A stretch of DNA of 64,000 nucleotides from Pseudohongiella sp. (GTDB lineage: Bacteria; Pseudomonadota; Gammaproteobacteria; Pseudomonadales; Pseudohongiellaceae). Below are positions 16,565 through 40,638 of this stretch, in pieces; position 1 is the stretch's first letter; each line of letters opens with the position of its first letter. The notes under the pieces are model-generated. The model made no database searches. It saw nothing but the letters and a program-made list of their open reading frames with translations, and was not told where the DNA came from. Both the position numbers and the translations under genes were made by a program. The DNA is taken from assembly GCA_030651695.1 (NCBI GenBank), contig JAUSCD010000031.1, positions 186,001-250,000 of the forward strand, in the 5' to 3' direction.

Positions 16565-18124
16565 ATGAAAATCTCGCTACAGCTAAAGCTTGGCCAACAA
16601 CTGACCATGACGCCACAGCTGCAGCAGGCAATACGGCTTCTGCAACTGTCTACCCTGGATCTTCAGCAAGAAATTCATCAGGCGCTTGAATCCAATCCCA
16701 TGCTGGAGGTTGACGAATCCTTCGAGGGTAGCAACGCTGACGAGAACTTTGACAGCGAAGGCGGCGAATATGCTGAAAAAGTGGTTTCCGGTACACAGGA
16801 AACTGACCAGCCTGAGTACGAAAATGCGCAGGAACTGTTCCGCGAACTACCCTCCACTGACAGCTCGTATGAAAGCTCGGAGGACGGCTCTAACTGGGAT
16901 GAAAGCATTCCTCAACAACTGCCGGTAGACACTGAATGGGATGACATTTACCAAAACAGTTACTCAACCGGCAGCCCTGTACCCGACAGCGACGCAGATT
17001 ATGAATCCCGCGACTCAGCGTCGGAAACCTTGCAAGACCATCTCTCCTGGCAGCTCAACCTTACGACAATGTCCGATACCGACCGACTGATTGGCATGGC
17101 CATTATTGATGCGGTTGATGCCAACGGGCGCCTGTCGGTTGAACTGGAGTCTATTACCGAAGGACTTCAGGAGCAGCACCTTGATGTTGAAGAAGACGAA
17201 GTGCTGGCGGTGCTGCACCGTATTCAGCATTTCGACCCGGTCGGGGTAGCCTATCGTGATCTTTCCGAGTGCCTGCTGATACAGCTTAAACAAATCCCGG
17301 CCGAACTGTGCACCGATGCCATCAAACATGCACGCATTCTGGTGAAAGACCATCTGGCGCTTCTGGGTAATCGCGATTACGCTCAGATAATGCGCGTTGC
17401 CCGCATGAAAGAACACGAGCTACGCGATGCCATCAGCATCATAGAAAAACTCAATCCAAGACCCGGATCGGATATTGCTGTTTCCTCTGCCACCTATATA
17501 GTGCCTGATGTTTTTGTCAGCAAAGATAAACGCAGCGGTCGCTGGAAGGTGGAACTGAATCCGGAAACCGCACCGCGCCTGCGCATCAACCCGGATTACG
17601 CATCGCTGGTAAAACGCTCGGAAAACAGCACTGAAAACAATTACTTGAGAGACAATTTGCAAGAGGCCCGCTGGTTTCTGAAAAGTCTGCAAAGCCGCAA
17701 TGAGACACTGCTGAAAGTTGCCAGTCGTATCGTAGAGCACCAGCAAGACTTCCTTGAACATGGAGAAGAAGCCATGAAACCACTGGTGCTGCACGATATT
17801 GCTGAAGCAGTGGAAATGCACGAATCCACCATTTCGCGTGTGACCACTCAAAAATACATGCACACGCCACGCGGCATATTCGAACTCAAATACTTCTTCT
17901 CCAGCCACGTCAGCACGGCGGCCGGCGGCGAGTGCTCCTCCACTGCCATCCGCGCACTGATCAAAAAGCTGGTATCCACCGAAAGCCCCAAAAAACCACT
18001 GAGTGACAGCCGAATCGCTGAGCTTCTGGATGAGCAGGGAATCAATGTTGCCAGGCGCACCATTGCCAAGTACAGGGAATCCTTGTCCATTCCGCCCTCC
18101 AATGAGCGAAAGCGCCTGATCTGA
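16565..18124 (+). CDS. rpoN: RNA polymerase sigma-54 factor (RpoN)
   Basis: The 519-residue protein has the glutamine-rich region I ([18 protein letters not shown]), an acidic region II (about 55-140), the core-binding domain, and the RpoN box [10 protein letters not shown] near the C-terminus that reads the -24 element. It is the sigma factor used by activators such as CbrB, also encoded here (37012), and by the GG-N10-GC promoter at 38528. It lies between lptB and ptsN, but the hpf gene usual after rpoN is missing. Confidence 0.97.
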
Positions 18125-27762: not shown

Positions 27763-27921
27763 TTCCCGGAATAAGATTCGGCATTGACTGCAAAAGCAGG
27801 TATCAATAAAGCAGGCAGCAAGCTGCGTAATTATGACTACTTTATAATGACTGAGCCATACGTTGCCAGCGTGTTACCCGGTCACAGTGCTATCAGGCTA
27901 TTATTTGTAACAGAGAGAGCA

Positions 27922-27982: not shown

Positions 27983-29347
27983 ATGCTAACTATGACTAAA
28001 CGCCAGCGTCGATTATTGCTGATTGTGTGCGCCCCCCTGCTTTTGCTGGTCGCGCTGGCTCTGGTATTGGCTGCATTGACCCTCAGTTTCAGCCCGTTGG
28101 TGAGCACGGGCGGCGCGCTGACCGATGCCGAGGTACGCCAGGTAGAGCAGTGGATTGTTGATAACAGCCCGTCAAGATTTGAGGAGCAAGGTGCCCGGGA
28201 CCTTAGCCTGACTGATGAGCAGCTTAACCTGCTGAGCGCCTTTGCGCTGTCCAACATCCCGCAACTACACGCAATTTCAATTGATTTTGATATTAACGGC
28301 AGCCAGGCTGATGCCCGCATGAGCATTCCCCGGGACCTTGGTCCGTTAACCGTGTACCTGAATCTTCGTGCCCGTTTCGCTCAGGATAAGGGACGGGCTC
28401 GATTGATTGAACTGCACGCCGGCAGACTTACGGTGCCACGACCTGTCATGCGTTCTGCAGAACAGATTGCAGGATACAGGCTGGCGTATGCCAGTACCGC
28501 CAGCCAGGAGCTTGCACAAGTGCGTCATAGTGTCGTGTCCTATGAGCTGTCAGACGACATGCTGCTGTTGCGCCTGGAGTGGGAGCCTGAGGTACTACTG
28601 CAACTGCGCTCACAGGCTCAACAGATCTTTGTCTCCGAAGAAGATCGCAAGCGCATCATCGCATACCACAGTCTTATCAATATAATCGCTCAAGACGCCA
28701 TAACACAGCGGCGGCAGGTCCCGCTGCATGCCTTTATACCGGCGCTTTACAAGTTGGCTGCTGAGCGTTCAGGCCAGCCCGGTGCCGACGCAGCCTCTGA
28801 GAACCGCAGCCTGCTGCAGGCCTTATCTTTTTTTGTAAACGACCTGCCTATTACCCAGTTGCTGGGTAAGCGAGAAGGAGAGGTGTTACCGGATAATCCA
28901 TCGATGATTGTAATGCTGTACCAGCGCCATGATCTCAGTCGCCACTTTGTCAGTGCAGCGGCAATAGCGGCATCTGCCGGTGTCGGCATTGCTGAAGTGC
29001 TTTCCAACAGCAAGGAAGTGCATGACGCGCGCTACGGCACCGGATTCAGCTTTAGTGACATGACTGCCAACGTTGCTGGCGTCACTCTCGGCGAGACGAC
29101 TACCGCCGATCATTCAACTGCGCTGTTCATGCAACAAAAGCTTATGAAATCCCATTCTGAGTCTGACTACATGCCGGAACCACGCACAGACTCCGATGGT
29201 ATAAACGAAGAAAACTTTATAGCCCGTTTTGGAGACCGCACAAGTACCGTTTATCTGAATCGGCTGCAGGAAATCGAACACAGTGTCAGAGCGCTGCCTT
29301 TGTATAAAAAGGAAGAGACTGAAACAGAAAACACTGGCGCATTCTAA
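27983..29347 (+). CDS. Uncharacterised membrane-anchored protein
   Basis: The 454-residue protein has a basic N-terminus and one membrane segment (RRLLLIVCAPLLLLVALAL, about 9-35), then a large domain that should be periplasmic. I do not recognise the family. A middle part with regular beta-like segments (HAISIDFDINGSQADARMSIP) precedes a helical region, and near residue 350 lies RYGTGFSFSDMTANVAGV, a compact motif that looks conserved. ATG at 27992 is an alternative start. It has its own promoter and is followed after about 30 bases by the PLP-enzyme gene. Confidence 0.8.
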   Translation: MLTMTKRQRRLLLIVCAPLLLLVALALVLAALTLSFSPLVSTGGALTDAEVRQVEQWIVDNSPSRFEEQGARDLSLTDEQLNLLSAFALSNIPQLHAISIDFDINGSQADARMSIPRDLGPLTVYLNLRARFAQDKGRARLIELHAGRLTVPRPVMRSAEQIAGYRLAYASTASQELAQVRHSVVSYELSDDMLLLRLEWEPEVLLQLRSQAQQIFVSEEDRKRIIAYHSLINIIAQDAITQRRQVPLHAFIPALYKLAAERSGQPGADAASENRSLLQALSFFVNDLPITQLLGKREGEVLPDNPSMIVMLYQRHDLSRHFVSAAAIAASAGVGIAEVLSNSKEVHDARYGTGFSFSDMTANVAGVTLGETTTADHSTALFMQQKLMKSHSESDYMPEPRTDSDGINEENFIARFGDRTSTVYLNRLQEIEHSVRALPLYKKEETETENTGAF

Positions 29348-33856: not shown

Positions 33857-34033
33857 ATGTACATCCCTCCATCAACACTGCTGTTTCTGGTATTCAGTTA
33901 CCTGCTTTTCCTGCTGAGTGTGGAATGGGCGATGCAACCTCACGGCGCCTGGTACCGCCCCCTGATTATCTGTTTTGTTGTGATTGCGATTGCTGCATGG
34001 TCGTATCGGGAACAAAATTCCGATGAGCTATAG
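33857..34033 (+). CDS. cbrX: CbrX-like small membrane protein upstream of CbrA
   Basis: A 58-residue frame begins MYIPPSTLLFLVFSYLLFLL and has two hydrophobic segments (about 7-21 and 34-48) around a short loop WAMQPHGAWYRP. It ends three bases before cbrA and begins 11 bases after gluQ, filling the gap exactly. Pseudomonas has a small co-transcribed gene, cbrX, in the same place. Size, topology and position agree, so the name is used by synteny. Its role in CbrA sensing is not established. Confidence 0.75.
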   Translation: MYIPPSTLLFLVFSYLLFLLSVEWAMQPHGAWYRPLIICFVVIAIAAWSYREQNSDEL

Positions 34034-34036
34034 GCC

Positions 34037-36988
34037 ATGACTTTCGAACTGAGCACACTGTTTGCAATCGGTGTTGGTTACCTGATTATTCTGTTCGGGA
34101 TCGCCTACATTACTGAAAAAGGCTGGATTCCCGAGCGCATCGTCCGCCACCCTTTTGTTTACGTGCTGTCACTGGGTGTGTTTGCCAGTGTCTGGTCGTA
34201 CTTTGCCGCCACTGGCAATGCCTTCCGCGACGGGTATGGTTACCTTGCTCCCTTTATCGGGATATCTCTGGCATTTCTTCTATCGCCGCTGCTTCTGCGA
34301 CCAATATTGAATCTGACCAAAACTTATCAGCTCAGCTCATTAGCTGATTTGCTGGCATTCCGCTACCGCAGCCCCTGGGCCGGCACGTTAACGACGCTGG
34401 TGATGTTGCTGGTTGTGATGCCGCTGCTGTCACTACAGATACAGGCAGTAGCAACGACGGTCAGCCTGTTGGCGCCGGACGCAACTCAAACCACGCTGGC
34501 TATCACCTTCTGCCTGCTGATCACTTTGTTTGCCATCTTTTTTGGCACGGGTAAAGGTTCCGGTCGCGAGCGTCATGAAGGCCTGGTGATGACCATCGCG
34601 TTCGAATCGCTGGTGAAACTGGTAGCGCTGCTGGCTGTCGGAATATTTGCTGTTTACCAGGGTTTTGGCAGTCTTGAGTCGATGGAGCAGTGGGTACGCG
34701 ATCAACCCGAGTTGTTGAATCGCATTAAACAGCCTGCACCACCCGGCACTTTCCAGATTATGGTGCTGGTATTTTTTACCGCAGCTGTTGCCACACCACA
34801 GATGTTTTACATGACTTTCCATGAAAACAATCACCCGCGCGCGCTCAGCGTCGCAAGCTGGGGGCTGCCGCTGTATTTCCTGCTGCTGAGTCTGCCTGTG
34901 CTTCCCATTCTGTGGGCGGGCTTGCGCTCCGGTGCGCTGACTCCCATGGAGTACTTTCCGGTTACACTGGGAGTGCATTACGATTCAGAGCTGTTCACTC
35001 TGATCGGATTTATCGGTGGCATGTCAGCAGCCAGCGGGCTGATTATTGTAATCACGCTGGCTTTGTCCACCATGTGCCTGAACCATTTGATTCTGCCTGT
35101 ATGGCAGCCGACAGCGCGCCAGGATATCTATCGCTGGCTGCTGTGGAAACGCAGGGTCCTGATTACAGCGCTGATATGGGGCGGTTTCCTGTTCTATTAC
35201 GTACCTGACGACAGTCAAAGCATTCGTGCCGTCAGCAATATCGGGCTCATCGGCAGCCTGCAGTTCCTGCCGGCCATTGTGGCTCTGTTGTACTGGCCGC
35301 GCGGCAATAAAAAGGGATTTATGGCGGGCCTCGCCGCCGGCACCGCAATCTGGTTTGTTTTCCTGGTACTGCCGGTCGCCGCAGGGACCAACTACTTCAC
35401 TCTGGGCAATATGAATACCCGGGAAATCGTGGCTTTGTCGCTGGTCTGTAATATCGCGATTTTTATGTTGATCTCATTGCTCACACGCAGCTCAATCGAA
35501 GAAAAAATCTCCGCTGACATTTGCTCTGTGGACAATCTGCGCCGACAACGCCGGGCAGGCCTGACTGCTGCTTCTGCTCAGGAATTTATCACCCAACTCA
35601 CCAAACCACTGGGTGAGCGCACGGCAACCCGCGAAGTCATGCAGGCGCTGCGCGATCTGAATATGGATAAACAGGACAAACGGCCGCAGTCGCTCAGACA
35701 ACTGCGCAGCCGGCTGGAAGCCAATCTCTCTGGATTGCTGGGGCCGGCCATTGCACATGACCTGATCGACCGGTTCCTGCCATATACCTCAATCAGCCAG
35801 TCCGGCTCAGCAGACGTGGCCGCCATTGAAAGTCGTATTGAAGCCTATCGTAGCAACCTCTCGGGCATGGCCGCCGATCTTGATAACCTGCGTCGTTACC
35901 ACCGTCAGATTCTGATGGATCTGCCGTTGGGAGTCTGTTCGCTTGGGCCAGAGGATCAGATTGTAATGTGGAACCACGCCATGGAGTCCCTCACCGGAAC
36001 CAGCAGCGAAGAAGCTGTCGGCCTGCACCTGAGTGAAATCGGCAACCCTTGGTACAAGCTGCTGAATCAGTTCCGTGACGGTGAAACCGCGCACCAGCAC
36101 AAGCTGACCGTGACAGTGAATGGCAGCAAACGTTACATCAGCCTTCACAAAGCCGTAATCGAAAAATCTACTGCCCGGCGCATACAGCAGGATGGCGTGA
36201 TTATCCTGCTGGAGGATCTGACCGAAACCGAGTTGCTGGAAGAGGAATTGGCGCACAGCGAACGGCTGGCATCGATCGGACGTCTGGCCGCGGGTGTCGC
36301 CCACGAGATCGGCAACCCCATCACAGGCATCGCCTGTCTTGCACAGAATATCCGCGATGAAACCCAGAATGATGAACTGCGCGGCATGGCACGGCAGATA
36401 ATCGAACAAACTGACCGCACCTCACGTATTGTGCAGTCGCTGGTCAATTTTGCCCACAGCGGCGCGCACAATAAATCAGACCAGCGCCAGGAAGCAGTCG
36501 TGATTGAAGACTGCATTCAGGAAGCCATCACGCTGGTGTCATTAAATAAAAAAGGCAAACAGATGGAGTTTGATGTGCAGTGTGAAAGCAAAGCACGCAT
36601 ACTCGGGGATTCGCAGCAACTGCTGCAGATTCTGGTGAACCTGATTAACAACGCCCGTGACGCCAGCCCGGCAGAAAGCACAATTACCATCCAGTGTGAG
36701 CGCATCGCTGCATCAGTGCAGATCAGTGTTTCCGACGAAGGTAGTGGTTTCCCGGAAGAAATCAGGGATCGTGTTTTTGAGCCGTTTTTCACTACCAAAG
36801 AGCCCGGTGAAGGCACAGGCCTGGGCCTGGCTCTGGTCTACAGTCTGGTTGAAAACCTCGGCGGACATATTGATATAATGAATGCCACAACAAAGCAGAA
36901 TAACCCGGGCGCACGAGTAGTCCTGAGTTTTCCCTGTTATGATGATCCCACAAGTGAGAGCCTGGCAGGACTACAACCTGACCTCTGA
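34037..36988 (+). CDS. cbrA: CbrA, symporter-fused sensor histidine kinase
   Basis: The 983-residue protein joins an SSS-type transporter domain (about 1-465, some 12-13 membrane segments) to a linker/PAS region (about 630-725) and a kinase core. The phosphorylated histidine is H756 in [10 protein letters not shown] box INNARDAS and G boxes DEGSGFP and [12 protein letters not shown] follow. In Pseudomonas CbrA responds to amino acids and other poor carbon sources, its symporter part transports histidine, and it phosphorylates CbrB. It is followed by cbrB with a 23-base gap. Confidence 0.95.
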
Positions 36989-37011: not shown

Positions 37012-38403
37012 ATGACAGCACATTACAAAGTTCTGGTTGTTGAGGATGAACCGATCATCCGGACTGCCCTTCGTCGTCTACTTGAGCGCCACGGATACGT
37101 CGTCAGTGAGGCCGGTTCTGTAAAGGAAGCGCTGGAGCTACTAGCGACTACCAGTTTTAATATCATTATCAGTGACCTGCGCCTTCCCGGCGCCCCCGGA
37201 ACAGATCTGATCAAAGCCACACGCATACCTGTGCTGATCATGACCAGCTACTCCAGTCTGCGCTCCGCAATCGATTCCATGAAGCTCGGCGCTGTCGACT
37301 ATATTCCCAAACCGTTTGAACATGATGAAATGTTGCAGGCCGTCGAACGTATCATCAAGGACAACGCTGGCAAAAACATCGCCCCGAAATCCGTAGAACC
37401 ACCACCTGAACCACCGGTACCCGGCATGATCGGAAGCTGCCCGCAGATGATGGAACTGTTTCGCCGAATACGTAAAGTGGCGCAGACCAGCTCAACGGTG
37501 CTGATCAACGGCGAATCGGGCACCGGTAAAGAACTGGTCGCACGCGCCATTCACCAGCTCAGCGATCGCGGCGCGATGGAGATGATTTCAGTCAATTGCG
37601 CCGCGATTCCCGAGAACCTGATTGAATCCGAGCTTTTTGGCCACGAAAAAGGCGCTTTTACGGGTGCCACCGCCAACCGCACGGGCCTGGTGGAAGCTGC
37701 CAACACCAGCACACTGTTCCTGGATGAAATCGGTGAATTGCCGCTTGATGCGCAGGCGCGCCTGTTGCGCGTGCTGCAGGAAAGTGAGATTCGCAAAGTC
37801 GGCTCGGTGCAGTCCCGAAAAGTAGATGTACGGCTGGTCGTGGCGACTCACCGCGACCTGAAACAACTGGTTATCGATGGTGAGTTCCGGGAAGATCTGT
37901 ATTACCGCATTAACGTTATGACTCTGTTGCTACCCCCGCTGAAAGAACGTGGCAACGACATCCTTGAATTGGCTGACGCCATACTCGAACGCACCTGCAA
38001 GCGCCTGAAATCACCCCTGTTGACCTTTACCGATGACGCCACTCAGGCGATCGCGACCTATCCCTGGCCAGGCAACGTGCGCGAGCTTGAAAACGCCATT
38101 GAGCGTGCTGTAGTGCTGGCTGAAACGGACGAGATCGGCGCGGAGCTGCTGGCAATCGACCTGACTGGTAACAAACGCACGATCCGGTCCATGACTGAAC
38201 GAAACCAGATGGACTCGCAAGCGAATGACGATGGTGAGTCGGCTGAGGAGTTGTCACTGGAGGATTATTTCCAGAAATTTGTGCTTGAACATCAGGACCA
38301 GATGAACGAAACCCAGCTGGCCAAGAAGCTGGGAATCAGCCGGAAATGTCTGTGGGAACGTCGCCAGCGTTTTGGTTTACCGCGCAAGAAGAAACAGGCA
38401 TAA
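37012..38403 (+). CDS. cbrB: CbrB, sigma-54-dependent response regulator
   Basis: The 463-residue protein has a receiver domain with phospho-acceptor D55 (IIISDLRLPG), an AAA+ domain with Walker A GESGTGKE and the sigma-54-contacting GAFTGA loop, and a C-terminal helix-turn-helix (ETQLAKKLGISRKCLWERRQRFG). It is the partner of CbrA. In Pseudomonas it activates the small RNA gene crcZ just downstream; here the same gap holds a sigma-54 promoter and an A-rich transcript region. RpoN itself is encoded at 16565. Confidence 0.96.
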   Translation: MTAHYKVLVVEDEPIIRTALRRLLERHGYVVSEAGSVKEALELLATTSFNIIISDLRLPGAPGTDLIKATRIPVLIMTSYSSLRSAIDSMKLGAVDYIPKPFEHDEMLQAVERIIKDNAGKNIAPKSVEPPPEPPVPGMIGSCPQMMELFRRIRKVAQTSSTVLINGESGTGKELVARAIHQLSDRGAMEMISVNCAAIPENLIESELFGHEKGAFTGATANRTGLVEAANTSTLFLDEIGELPLDAQARLLRVLQESEIRKVGSVQSRKVDVRLVVATHRDLKQLVIDGEFREDLYYRINVMTLLLPPLKERGNDILELADAILERTCKRLKSPLLTFTDDATQAIATYPWPGNVRELENAIERAVVLAETDEIGAELLAIDLTGNKRTIRSMTERNQMDSQANDDGESAEELSLEDYFQKFVLEHQDQMNETQLAKKLGISRKCLWERRQRFGLPRKKKQA

Positions 38404-38406
38404 AAC

Positions 38407-38453
38407 TGTTACCGATACCCATCTACCCATTCCATCAGCGACTTTTGGTAACA
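38407..38453. promoter_or_regulatory. Candidate CbrB upstream activating site
   Basis: TGTTACC (38407-38413) and GGTAACA (38447-38453) are inverted repeats about 75 bases upstream of the -24 element at 38529. The half-sites match the TGTTAC/GTAACA type I recall for CbrB in Pseudomonas, but the gap between the hexamers here is 35 bases rather than about 14, i.e. two more helical turns. This could mean two separate half-sites read by an oligomer. Confidence 0.5.
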
Positions 38454-38527
38454 CTTAGAGACAATTCTCCTTGTGACGCTCCTCGCAAAAATAATCAAGT
38501 GCATGATTTTAAACAAGTTAGCATTGT

Positions 38528-38542
38528 TGGCACAGATCCTGC
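38528..38542 (+). promoter_or_regulatory. Sigma-54 promoter of the crcZ-like RNA
   Basis: TGGCAC (38528-38533) followed by TGC (38540-38542) gives GG at 38529-38530 and GC at 38541-38542 with exactly ten bases between, the -24/-12 rule for RpoN. Transcription should begin near 38554. It lies 125 bases after cbrB, outside any gene, and points away from cbrB. Confidence 0.8.
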
Positions 38543-38553
38543 TCTATTACGAA

Positions 38554-38816
38554 CAAAGCAATAATAATAAATAATAAAAATAACGACGCATAACAACAAT
38601 AATGGCATCAATAATTGGTGCATAAGAACAATAAAAATAATCAGAACGGGCAAGCAGAAATAGTGACGCAATTGCTGAACAGCTGCTGGTACTGTGATCA
38701 AGACTGAACGCACAAATCGTACTCATGTATAGATTAGGTGCGCCTGAACAAAAACAAAAAGAAACAATAATAAAAACAATACATACCTTCCTTGCGGGGG
38801 GGTCAAGTCACCCCCC
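38554..38816 (+). ncRNA. crcZ: CrcZ-like small RNA (Hfq/Crc-titrating)
   Basis: The region between the sigma-54 promoter and a strong hairpin has no credible frame, but holds four A-rich clusters with AANAANAA motifs: 38560-38583, 38592-38602, 38624-38640 and 38747-38780. Between clusters 3 and 4 lies a mixed-sequence part that can fold. Pseudomonas CrcZ is a sigma-54/CbrB-dependent RNA from the same cbrB-pcnB gap that carries repeated such motifs and sequesters Hfq with Crc. Promoter type, place, orientation and motif repetition all agree. Ends are estimates: start from the promoter, 3' end from the hairpin. Confidence 0.75.
38796..38816 (+). terminator. Hairpin closing the crcZ-like RNA
   Basis: A run of seven G (38796-38802) and T803 pair with A810 and six C (38811-38816), giving a 7-bp stem with loop CAAGTC. 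The stem is very stable. Only a short TTT follows six bases later, so it is not a textbook intrinsic terminator; the RNA may continue or be trimmed to here. Confidence 0.5.
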
Positions 38817-38970
38817 AGAGCATTTCCCCTGCACACTTTCTTCACTTCCGTGTATTATTGCCGCCTTCTGCGTCAACACTGTAATCAATGAGATTTCAGC
38901 GTATTTACTGTCGCAATCAACTTTTGCAGCTTGTACCTATGAACTGTCGTAATCAGAAGCCGAGTTTTCA

Positions 38971-40638
38971 ATGTTAAAAAAGCTTGTACGCATGCTTTTT
39001 GGCAAATCAGGACAATCCACTACCGACACCGGTAAGACTGACGCCCGAAAGAAAACCGGCAAAGATGCGGCTGATTCATCGCGCACCCGTAACGCCGGTC
39101 CAGGCAAGTCCTCCGAGACGCGGGCCCGCAAACCGCGCTCAAGCCACGACACTGCAGGCGCTGGCACCGGTACCAGCAAACGCAGCAATAACACCGCAGA
39201 TAACAAAACTGCCAACCGTCACAGTTCGGGAGGGCTGCCACCTGCCCTGCGCAAGCTCGATCTGCGTGATGTCGACGTTGTCGCCCGCGAAGACCACAAT
39301 ATTTCGCGCAGGGATATCTCTCCAAACGCGCTGAAGGTGCTTTACCGGTTGAATGATGCTGGTTTCCAGGCTTTTCTGGTGGGCGGCGGTGTGCGCGACC
39401 TCTTACTGGGCGGTCATCCCAAGGATTTTGATATCTCTACCGATGCCACGCCGGAGCAGGTACGGGAAGTGTTCCGCAACTCGCGTATCATCGGTCGCCG
39501 CTTTAAAATCGCCCATGTGCGTTTTGGCCAGGAAATTATCGAGGTCACTACCTTCCGTGCACACCACGAAATCGAAACTGAGGTAGAAGAAGGCGAATCG
39601 CGCAAGCATATCCGTGATCTCGACTCGGCCCACTCCAGCACCGGCATGATCCTGCGCGACAATGTTTATGGCAGCATCAACGAAGATGCCCTGCGCAGGG
39701 ATTTCACAGTCAATGCGCTGTATTACACGACTAACGGTTTCTGGCTGCTGGACTTTGTGGACGGCCTGCCTGACATCAAAAACAAGCTGATTCGCATGAT
39801 CGGCGATCCCGAGCAGCGTTACCGCGAAGATCCGGTACGTATCCTGCGCGCCATCCGCCTGGCCGCAAAACTGGACTTCAAAATCCATAAGGATACTGAA
39901 ACCCCCATCGCCAAACTGGCAACACTGCTGGAGTCCATCTCCTCCGCGCGCCTGTTCGATGAAACCGTCAAACTCTTTACCGGAGGCAGCGCTGAAGCGA
40001 CGTTTGAGCTGTTGCGTCGTTACAAGGTGGCGGACTACCTGTTTAAACCCACCCTGCGCTGCCTTGGCGACAATAACTCCAATGACAGCCGCCTTGTATT
40101 GCTTGCCCTGCAAAACACTGACAAGCGCCTCGCAGACGGCAAATCGGTTACCCCTGCTTTCCTGTATGCCGCGCTCTTGTGGCCGCCGATGCAGGCCTTG
40201 CTGAGAGAAGAATTCGGCGATCGCCCTGCTCCGCTTGCAGCCATGCAGGACGCTGCCACCGACGTCATTGTGGAGCAATTGCGATTTACTGCGATTCCCA
40301 AACGTTTTACTGCTGTTATGCGTGAAATCTGGGAACTTCAGTGGCGGATGCAACCTCAAAGCCGGAAGCAGGTCGAAAGTGTGATTGCGCACCCGCGTTT
40401 CCGGGCAGCATACGATTTCCTGTTATTGCGGGAAGAGTCTGGCGAACAGCTGAATAATGCCGGCGACTGGTGGACCAGATTCCAGCTGGCCGATCGCGGA
40501 GAGCAGGAAGTAATGATTGAAGGCCTTCAGGCGGTCAAAGCCCCACGCAAACGCCGTCGCAAACCCAATAAATCGTCCGCCGCATCCAAACAGGCAGACC
40601 AGCCACAAGCACAAAAAACGGAGCCGGCCGGTGACTGA
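38971..40638 (+). CDS. pcnB: Poly(A) polymerase I (PcnB)
   Basis: The 555-residue protein has the class II nucleotidyltransferase core with LVGGGVRDLLLGGHPKDFDIST near residue 130, FRNSRIIGRRFKIAHV and RRDFTVNALYY, which separate it from tRNA CCA-adding enzymes together with the basic tail (KRRRKPNK). The first 90 residues are a Ser/Thr/Lys-rich disordered extension longer than in E. coli. PcnB adds poly(A) tails that speed RNA decay. It overlaps the start of the next gene by eight bases. Confidence 0.95.
   Translation: MLKKLVRMLFGKSGQSTTDTGKTDARKKTGKDAADSSRTRNAGPGKSSETRARKPRSSHDTAGAGTGTSKRSNNTADNKTANRHSSGGLPPALRKLDLRDVDVVAREDHNISRRDISPNALKVLYRLNDAGFQAFLVGGGVRDLLLGGHPKDFDISTDATPEQVREVFRNSRIIGRRFKIAHVRFGQEIIEVTTFRAHHEIETEVEEGESRKHIRDLDSAHSSTGMILRDNVYGSINEDALRRDFTVNALYYTTNGFWLLDFVDGLPDIKNKLIRMIGDPEQRYREDPVRILRAIRLAAKLDFKIHKDTETPIAKLATLLESISSARLFDETVKLFTGGSAEATFELLRRYKVADYLFKPTLRCLGDNNSNDSRLVLLALQNTDKRLADGKSVTPAFLYAALLWPPMQALLREEFGDRPAPLAAMQDAATDVIVEQLRFTAIPKRFTAVMREIWELQWRMQPQSRKQVESVIAHPRFRAAYDFLLLREESGEQLNNAGDWWTRFQLADRGEQEVMIEGLQAVKAPRKRRRKPNKSSAASKQADQPQAQKTEPAGD

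Follow-up and report, generated by a model that had tools for sequence, protein, structure and literature searches.

The gap between cbrB and pcnB of a Pseudohongiella genome probably encodes an orthologue of the small RNA CrcZ, recognised by its synteny, that would be driven by CbrB and RpoN and would titrate Hfq without Crc. The gap was analysed within a stretch of 64,000 nt, which is referred to here as the window. Pseudohongiella belongs to the family Pseudohongiellaceae under the order Pseudomonadales, and the host of the window is a marine bacterium. The earlier note on this DNA had claimed a CrcZ homologue beyond the studied species. This claim is borne out by the synteny, the sigma-54 promoter, the CbrB-type site, and the cbrXAB genes next to the locus.

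Gene order and features of the locus

The features of the locus are listed below with their window coordinates and strand.

16565..18124, +, rpoN (sigma-54)
33857..34033, +, cbrX homologue of 58 aa, the same length as Pseudomonas-type CbrX
34037..36988, +, cbrA, transporter-like histidine kinase
37012..38403, +, cbrB, response regulator and sigma-54 activator
38407..38412, +, CbrB subsite F1 (TGTTAC), consensus taken from the part of PMC8871633 that was available
38413..38429, +, conserved TACC-repeat block CGATACCCATCTACCCA, in the place of the Pseudomonas F1-R1 spacer and R1
38448..38453, +, CbrB subsite R2 (GTAACA), 41 nt from F1, start to start
38528..38543, +, sigma-54 promoter TGGCAC-N6-TGC, TGGCACAGATCCTGCT, identified by sequence and conservation
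38554..38830, +, CrcZ-like sRNA with both ends predicted, matched by Rfam RF01675
38557..38603, +, three (ARN)>=4 runs, A-rich motifs for the distal face of Hfq
38624..38641, +, A-rich run, (ARN)6
38653..38664, +, weaker ARN run AGCAGAAATAGT, in the poorly conserved middle part (0.52)
38747..38780, +, A-rich cluster of (ARN)6 and (ARN)5 runs
38783..38795, +, ATACCTTCCTTGC before the hairpin, invariant in 13 of 13 columns (12 genus genomes)
38796..38816, +, G7/C6 hairpin, probable 3' end
38971..40638, +, pcnB, downstream neighbour

The order cbrX-cbrA-cbrB-crcZ-pcnB is the Pseudomonas-type order. The stop of cbrB at 38403 and the start of pcnB at 38971 leave a gap of 567 nt (38404–38970). The gene-free gap that had been claimed is therefore real, and its length is corrected from 566 bases. 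The activator pair that had been expected alongside the RNA, cbrA and cbrB, is found together with cbrX directly upstream of the RNA locus, and RpoN is encoded in the window as had been stated. The cbrX gene ends 3 nt before cbrA in the window and overlaps cbrA in the Pseudomonas-type genome.

The CbrA of the window exhibits 49.9% identity to the CbrA of the Pseudomonas-type genome G290 over 984 aligned columns. The HisKA and HATPase domains of CbrA were recognised by Pfam at 1e-5, and the transporter half is without a Pfam match at that threshold. CbrB carries a sigma-54 activator domain, and its C-terminal helix-turn-helix, which is the DNA-binding end, is nearly identical across families (13 rows shown). 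CbrB of the window is 93% identical to that of strain LSUCC0112 and 83–94% identical to those of five records named Pseudohongiella (94% for one partial record). Three MAG records titled Rhodoferax or Klebsiella pneumoniae (L002, L022, and L026) carry cbrB loci of the Pseudohongiellaceae type, and these titles look wrong.

Sigma-54 promoter and CbrB site

The TGGCAC...TGC motif with GG-N10-GC spacing that had been reported is present, with GG at 38529-38530 and GC at 38541-38542. The upstream TGTTACC/GGTAACA repeat is likewise in place, where TGTTACC starts at 38407 and GGTAACA ends at 38453. The published CbrB site reads TGTTAC-N12-14-GTAACA-N15-19-GTAACA in the available part of PMC8871633, and its three subsites are F1, R1, and R2. 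The full site does not occur here: F1 and R2 are at the expected distance and R1 (GTAACA) is absent, not only from the window but also from the loci of g1, g145, and g2 that were read. The stretch at 38407-38429 that spans F1 and the CGATACCCATCTACCCA block is invariant in 20 of 23 columns among 12 genomes of the genus, and the three TACC repeats across it may serve as alternative half-sites. F1 lies 121 nt from the promoter in the window versus 124 nt in six of the eight Pseudomonas-type loci shown. The Pseudomonas-type locus L045 has an R2-like GTAACG at about +42, as counted by eye.

The pattern TGTTAC-N10-40-GTAACA is not enriched genome-wide (10 sites versus 13 for the reversed control). 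The pattern alone thus predicts nothing, and a CbrB regulon based on it was dropped. One further pair in the window, TGTTAC-N29-GTAACA at 27872-27912, is followed after some 70 nt by an ORF of 454 aa (27983-29347) that is without a Pfam match. No sigma-54 site was seen by eye between this pair and the ORF.

The predicted RNA

The spacing from the promoter places the predicted 5' end of the RNA near 38554. Four AANAANAA clusters are found within the putative transcript, in agreement with the four A-rich motif clusters that had been claimed, and one short match lies upstream of the promoter. The stretch 38554-38830 holds 19 overlapping AANAANAA matches, whereas 2000 dinucleotide shuffles gave a mean of 2.2 (sd 1.7) and no shuffle had as many. 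With both strands of the window considered, the 277-nt stretch that ranks second in density has 3 matches. Three of the seven genome matches of AANAANAANAANAANAA are within the CrcZ-like RNA. A reversed control is uninformative for AANAANAANAANAANAA because its reverse is the same pattern. Altogether, the RNA carries seven runs of at least four ARN repeats, from 38557 to 38780.

The hairpin was found with the seven G and six C that had been claimed for it. The whole RNA folds somewhat better than shuffled sequences do (z -1.85, 9 of 200 as good), and the hairpin piece does so to a lesser degree (z -1.29, 20 of 200 as good); both signals are weak. An intrinsic terminator with a U tract was sought and not found, and no U tract follows the hairpin in the genus of the window, so termination is not obvious.

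Search with the Rfam CrcZ model

In the window, every Rfam family stays below its cut-off. The CrcZ model (RF01675) has 398 positions and a curated gathering cut-off of 95 bits. Searched against the gap alone, the whole model matches 38571–38852 with 40.7 bits and an E-value of 2.7e-9. By Rfam's rule the locus is not called CrcZ, since 40.7 bits is under the cut-off. The covariance search that had been proposed is thus favourable by its E-value and unfavourable by the Rfam cut-off. The genome search with RF01675 returned a single match at E <= 0.001 (E 3.9e-9), and 0 of 14 control genomes were matched. Rfam also matched two frameshift elements to the hairpin, with E near 0.5, and narK, with E 4; all three matches were put down to chance.

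Across the order, 71 of 390 genomes are matched by RF01675 at E <= 0.001 and 19 of 390 are above the cut-off. The 71 matching genomes comprise 16 in the Pseudomonas-type family (f21), 6 in the family of the window (f1), 30 in f2, f8, f20, and f35, and 19 scattered elsewhere with E-values of 1.1e-6 to 8.4e-4. One of five individual loci that were tried is matched, namely that of P. nitratireducens (L010; 34.9 bits, E 1.4e-5), and the other four (L026, L028, L029, and L043) are without a match at 0.01. The unmatched locus of Halomonas litopenaei (L043) exhibits motifs similar to those of the window locus. A genome of the window's own genus (G204) is also missed by Rfam with all motifs present.

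Hfq and candidate targets

The genome has one Hfq gene. Its product keeps the distal-face Tyr25 (a Tyr aligned to residue 25 through the 1u1s row) and matches, at 5.1e-32, the Hfq in PDB 6o1k, where Crc is present as well. According to the available part of PMC4063720, Hfq of P. aeruginosa is bound on its distal face and titrated by CrcZ, and the Hfq variant Y25D is defective in binding a CrcZ fragment.

Only four long A-rich runs were found elsewhere in the genome, three of them in leaders, and this small number was counted against the CrcZ reading. At G000:C23:8708 (L226), the run stops 60 nt short of the first ATG for a PQQ dehydrogenase. The run at G000:C30:266690 (L227) ends 45 nt before the first ATG of a MASE3-GGDEF protein. 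The run at G000:C13:13719 (L224) ends 37 nt before the first ATG of a PAS/GAF protein. These three leaders, with runs on the same strand, are candidate Hfq targets and are offered as leads only. The fourth run adjoins a terminator-like inverted repeat, as judged by eye.

Search for Crc and its paralogues

The RNA had been expected to sequester Hfq/Crc, and the Crc part of that expectation had to be abandoned. By Crc profile and residues, no Crc gene was recognised in the genome of the window or in any of 59 genomes of the family. What the RNA sequesters, if anything, would therefore be Hfq by itself or Hfq together with a different partner. The Crc profile matches 56 of the 59 family genomes at 1e-15 (all except G393, G413, and G425). 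Matches scoring over 240 bits occur in 31 family genomes, and nuclease-type residues stand at the match in every one of them. Another 37 matches are weaker (105–176 bits) and agree with the ExoA type by score, and for two of these the residues were checked. Protein L083 is a Crc by its near identity to the solved Crc and by its place in the order argB-pyrE-crc-rph. At the corresponding place in the genome of the window, 33 nt separate pyrE from rph, no gene lies in that space, and argB is near.

Four PF03372 proteins are encoded in the genome of the window. Two of these are nuclease-type (L074 and L075), and the other two have no Crc-profile match at 1e-15. L074 is closest to the 5cfe-type exodeoxyribonucleases and is presumably of the ExoA type. 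L075 (G000:C21:335777-336547) is presumably of the NApe type. It could be proposed that L075, as a nuclease-type Crc paralogue, is the co-repressor and that the system consists of Hfq and a still catalytic relative of Crc. Of the proteins in the genome, L075 is indeed the nearest homologue of Crc (222 bits to the solved Crc), and several proteins of its type in g2 and other families share the RRKRRE stretch of Crc. However, its best solved relative is the exodeoxyribonuclease 2jc5 (310 bits), which we take to be a Neisseria protein, and it keeps the nuclease residues QE, GDWN, and SDH. The stretch is also degenerate in the genus of the window, where SFRNDGRQ stands at the position of KQRRKRRE in Crc, whereas six Crc proteins from six families all have K77, K135, K139, R140, and R141 and have each lost nuclease residues. 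A basic patch with these Crc positions binds RNA in the Hfq-Crc structures described in the available part of PMC9890229. Both genes occur together in G051, G099, G235, and G255 by residues and in G152, where Crc was read and the NApe-type gene was assigned by score only; the best match of the Crc of G255 is the solved Crc. Crc and the NApe-type proteins are paralogues because both are found in the same genomes, and a co-repressor role for L075 is considered unlikely.

Some NApe-type proteins keep the nuclease residues together with a Crc-like RRKRRE patch (L075, L081, L102-L124, and L125-L129 were compared). In the gene tree, 16 Crc rows form one clade at 100/100. In a tree of 76 rows, Crc and the nuclease-type proteins of other families form a group that excludes the nuclease-type proteins of the window's family at 97/97, and the same exclusion is only at 89/76 when six rows (five nuclease-type and one Xth-type) are dropped. 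Within the order, Crc seems to be a paralogue of NApe-type AP endonucleases that is no longer catalytic.

The reading of the locus as a CbrB- and RpoN-driven decoy for Hfq leads to the following model. On poor carbon sources, CbrA would phosphorylate CbrB, and phosphorylated CbrB would bind F1 and R2 and give RpoN-dependent transcription from about 38554. The ARN runs of the predicted RNA and the Tyr25 face of Hfq are the same surfaces as those of the P. aeruginosa pair, and they would be used here without Crc. The decoy would titrate Hfq alone or Hfq with another partner because Crc is absent, and it probably acts on Hfq alone. Somewhat more speculatively, and at rather less than even odds in our judgement, a CbrB-CrcZ-Hfq circuit without Crc in Pseudohongiellaceae may exhibit the older state. 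The Hfq decoy would then have come first, and Crc would have arisen later from a duplicated AP-endonuclease-type protein that lost its active site and became a co-repressor of Hfq. A lineage of this kind would also open the origin of Crc from a nuclease to study by a tree.

Conservation in the genus and family

Pairwise identity was compared among 12 gaps of the same genus. It is 0.945 for the F1 block, 0.92 for R2, 0.79 for the sigma-54 site, 0.79 and 0.87 for the A clusters, 1.0 before the hairpin, 0.976 for the hairpin, 0.96 just after it, and 0.45-0.56 for the remaining stretches. The slowly evolving parts of the gap in these genomes are therefore the sigma-54 site, F1/R2, the ARN runs except one, and the hairpin. 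In the module at 38783-38830, the 13 bases 3' of the hairpin are nearly invariant as well (10 of 13 columns, 12 genus genomes).

Beyond the genus, 58 loci with both neighbours were collected from the cbrB and CrcZ searches, and the promoter was scored with our own sigma-54 consensus at up to two mismatches. The sigma-54 site is found in 56 of the 58 loci (except L027 and L029) and F1 is in place in 55 (except L027, L028, and L029). P. nitratireducens and G110, a genome from the genus of the window, agree in the promoter of the gap and in its spacing.

For the family, 57 genomes had a cbrB match and 50 loci were read. F1 and R2 are 40–41 nt apart in 35 of the 50 loci (12/12 in the genus of the window, 11/11 in g145, 10/12 in g2, and the single g146 and g147 loci), and a version with 34–35 nt is found in four of the seven g3 loci. 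F1 lies 119–121 nt upstream of the promoter in 34 of the 35 family loci with the pair, and 130 nt upstream in L198. The exact pair is missing in 11 of the 50 loci, which was counted against the CrcZ reading, as were the Rfam score under the cut-off, the missing R1, the lack of a U tract, and the unenriched TGTTAC/GTAACA pattern. Among these 11 loci, an exact R2 is lacking in L196, L202, and L206, where F1 and the promoter are retained, L213 has the promoter and F1 only, L210 has the promoter with F1 not placed, and L208 and L212 are without a convincing promoter; L205 carried no gap sequence and was counted with them. The remaining L209, L211, and L214 come from one genome of g2 and two of g4, and their gaps are reduced to 23, 265, and 111 nt; crcZ has likely been lost there while cbrB stays.

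The same comparison bears on the possibility that the A-rich RNA pairs with mRNAs and uses Hfq as a chaperone rather than as the target of a decoy. ARN runs are also able to recruit Hfq in pairing sRNAs, and the invariant CCTTCCTTGC before the hairpin could be a seed. Nevertheless, the A clusters are the larger of the conserved single-stranded parts, and the middle part exhibits an identity of 0.52; we regard pairing as improbable.

The least probable reading, to which we give hardly any weight, takes the region for a long sigma-54-driven leader of pcnB or of a small protein rather than a separate RNA. The region does have pcnB as its immediate downstream neighbour on the same strand, and the search for a U-tract terminator was negative. 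On the other side, all three forward frames are interrupted, which rules out a small protein across the RNA, identity falls past the hairpin module to 0.55 over 38831-38970, 30 of 34 family loci have a stem of at least five G-C pairs at 244–284 nt from the promoter, and a sigma-70-like site stands ahead of pcnB at 38830-38858, at a frequency expected by chance (2 found, 1.5 expected). The stem differs in sequence between loci and was taken as the best in the range by a scan without a shuffle control. A U-rich tail follows the stem in some members of g2 and g3, but not in g1 or g145.

Comparison with known systems

CbrAB is stated to be exclusive to Pseudomonadaceae in the available parts of PMC8871633 and PMC6296734, and a 2022 review calls the system unique to that family. 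No report of CbrAB-CrcZ in Pseudohongiellaceae was found in the literature searched, which holds few subscription journals. The CbrXAB of the window differs from these statements in that it belongs to Pseudohongiellaceae and not to Pseudomonadaceae. Its likeness to the known system is seen in the length of CbrX, in a CbrA that is 50% identical to the Pseudomonas-type protein, and in the conserved DNA-binding end of CbrB.

The literature, in the parts available, sets CrcZ against Hfq or against the Hfq/Crc complex. A natural lineage with CrcZ and Hfq and without Crc would allow an in vivo test of whether Hfq alone carries carbon catabolite repression, and it would also test whether Hfq is the real partner of CrcZ. 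Rfam has reason to widen the CrcZ family.

The predicted RNA resembles CrcZ (and CrcY and CrcX) of Pseudomonas and Azotobacter in its place between cbrB and pcnB, its sigma-54 promoter, its CbrB-type site, its ARN runs, and its 3' G/C hairpin. Six ARN runs are reported for P. aeruginosa CrcZ in the available part of PMC4063720, compared with seven here. Unlike CrcZ, the RNA of the window is shorter, at about 275 nt against the full model length, and falls under the Rfam cut-off. The system differs further in lacking R1 in the window, a U tract in the genus, and a recognisable Crc in the genome. Crc of Pseudomonas (PDB 4jg3) is of the same family as L075, its nearest relative in the genome of the window. 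In comparison with Pseudomonas Crc, L075 keeps the nuclease residues, is without the basic patch, and belongs to a paralogous group.

RsmY/RsmZ and CsrB bind CsrA/RsmA through GGA hairpins, whereas CrcZ-type decoys use ARN runs on Hfq. The logic of these systems is the same, in that a regulated RNA titrates an RNA-binding repressor, a comparison that is drawn in the available part of PMC4063720. In Acinetobacter baumannii, an A-rich RNA bound by Hfq has been compared with CrcZ in the available part of PMC12802169.
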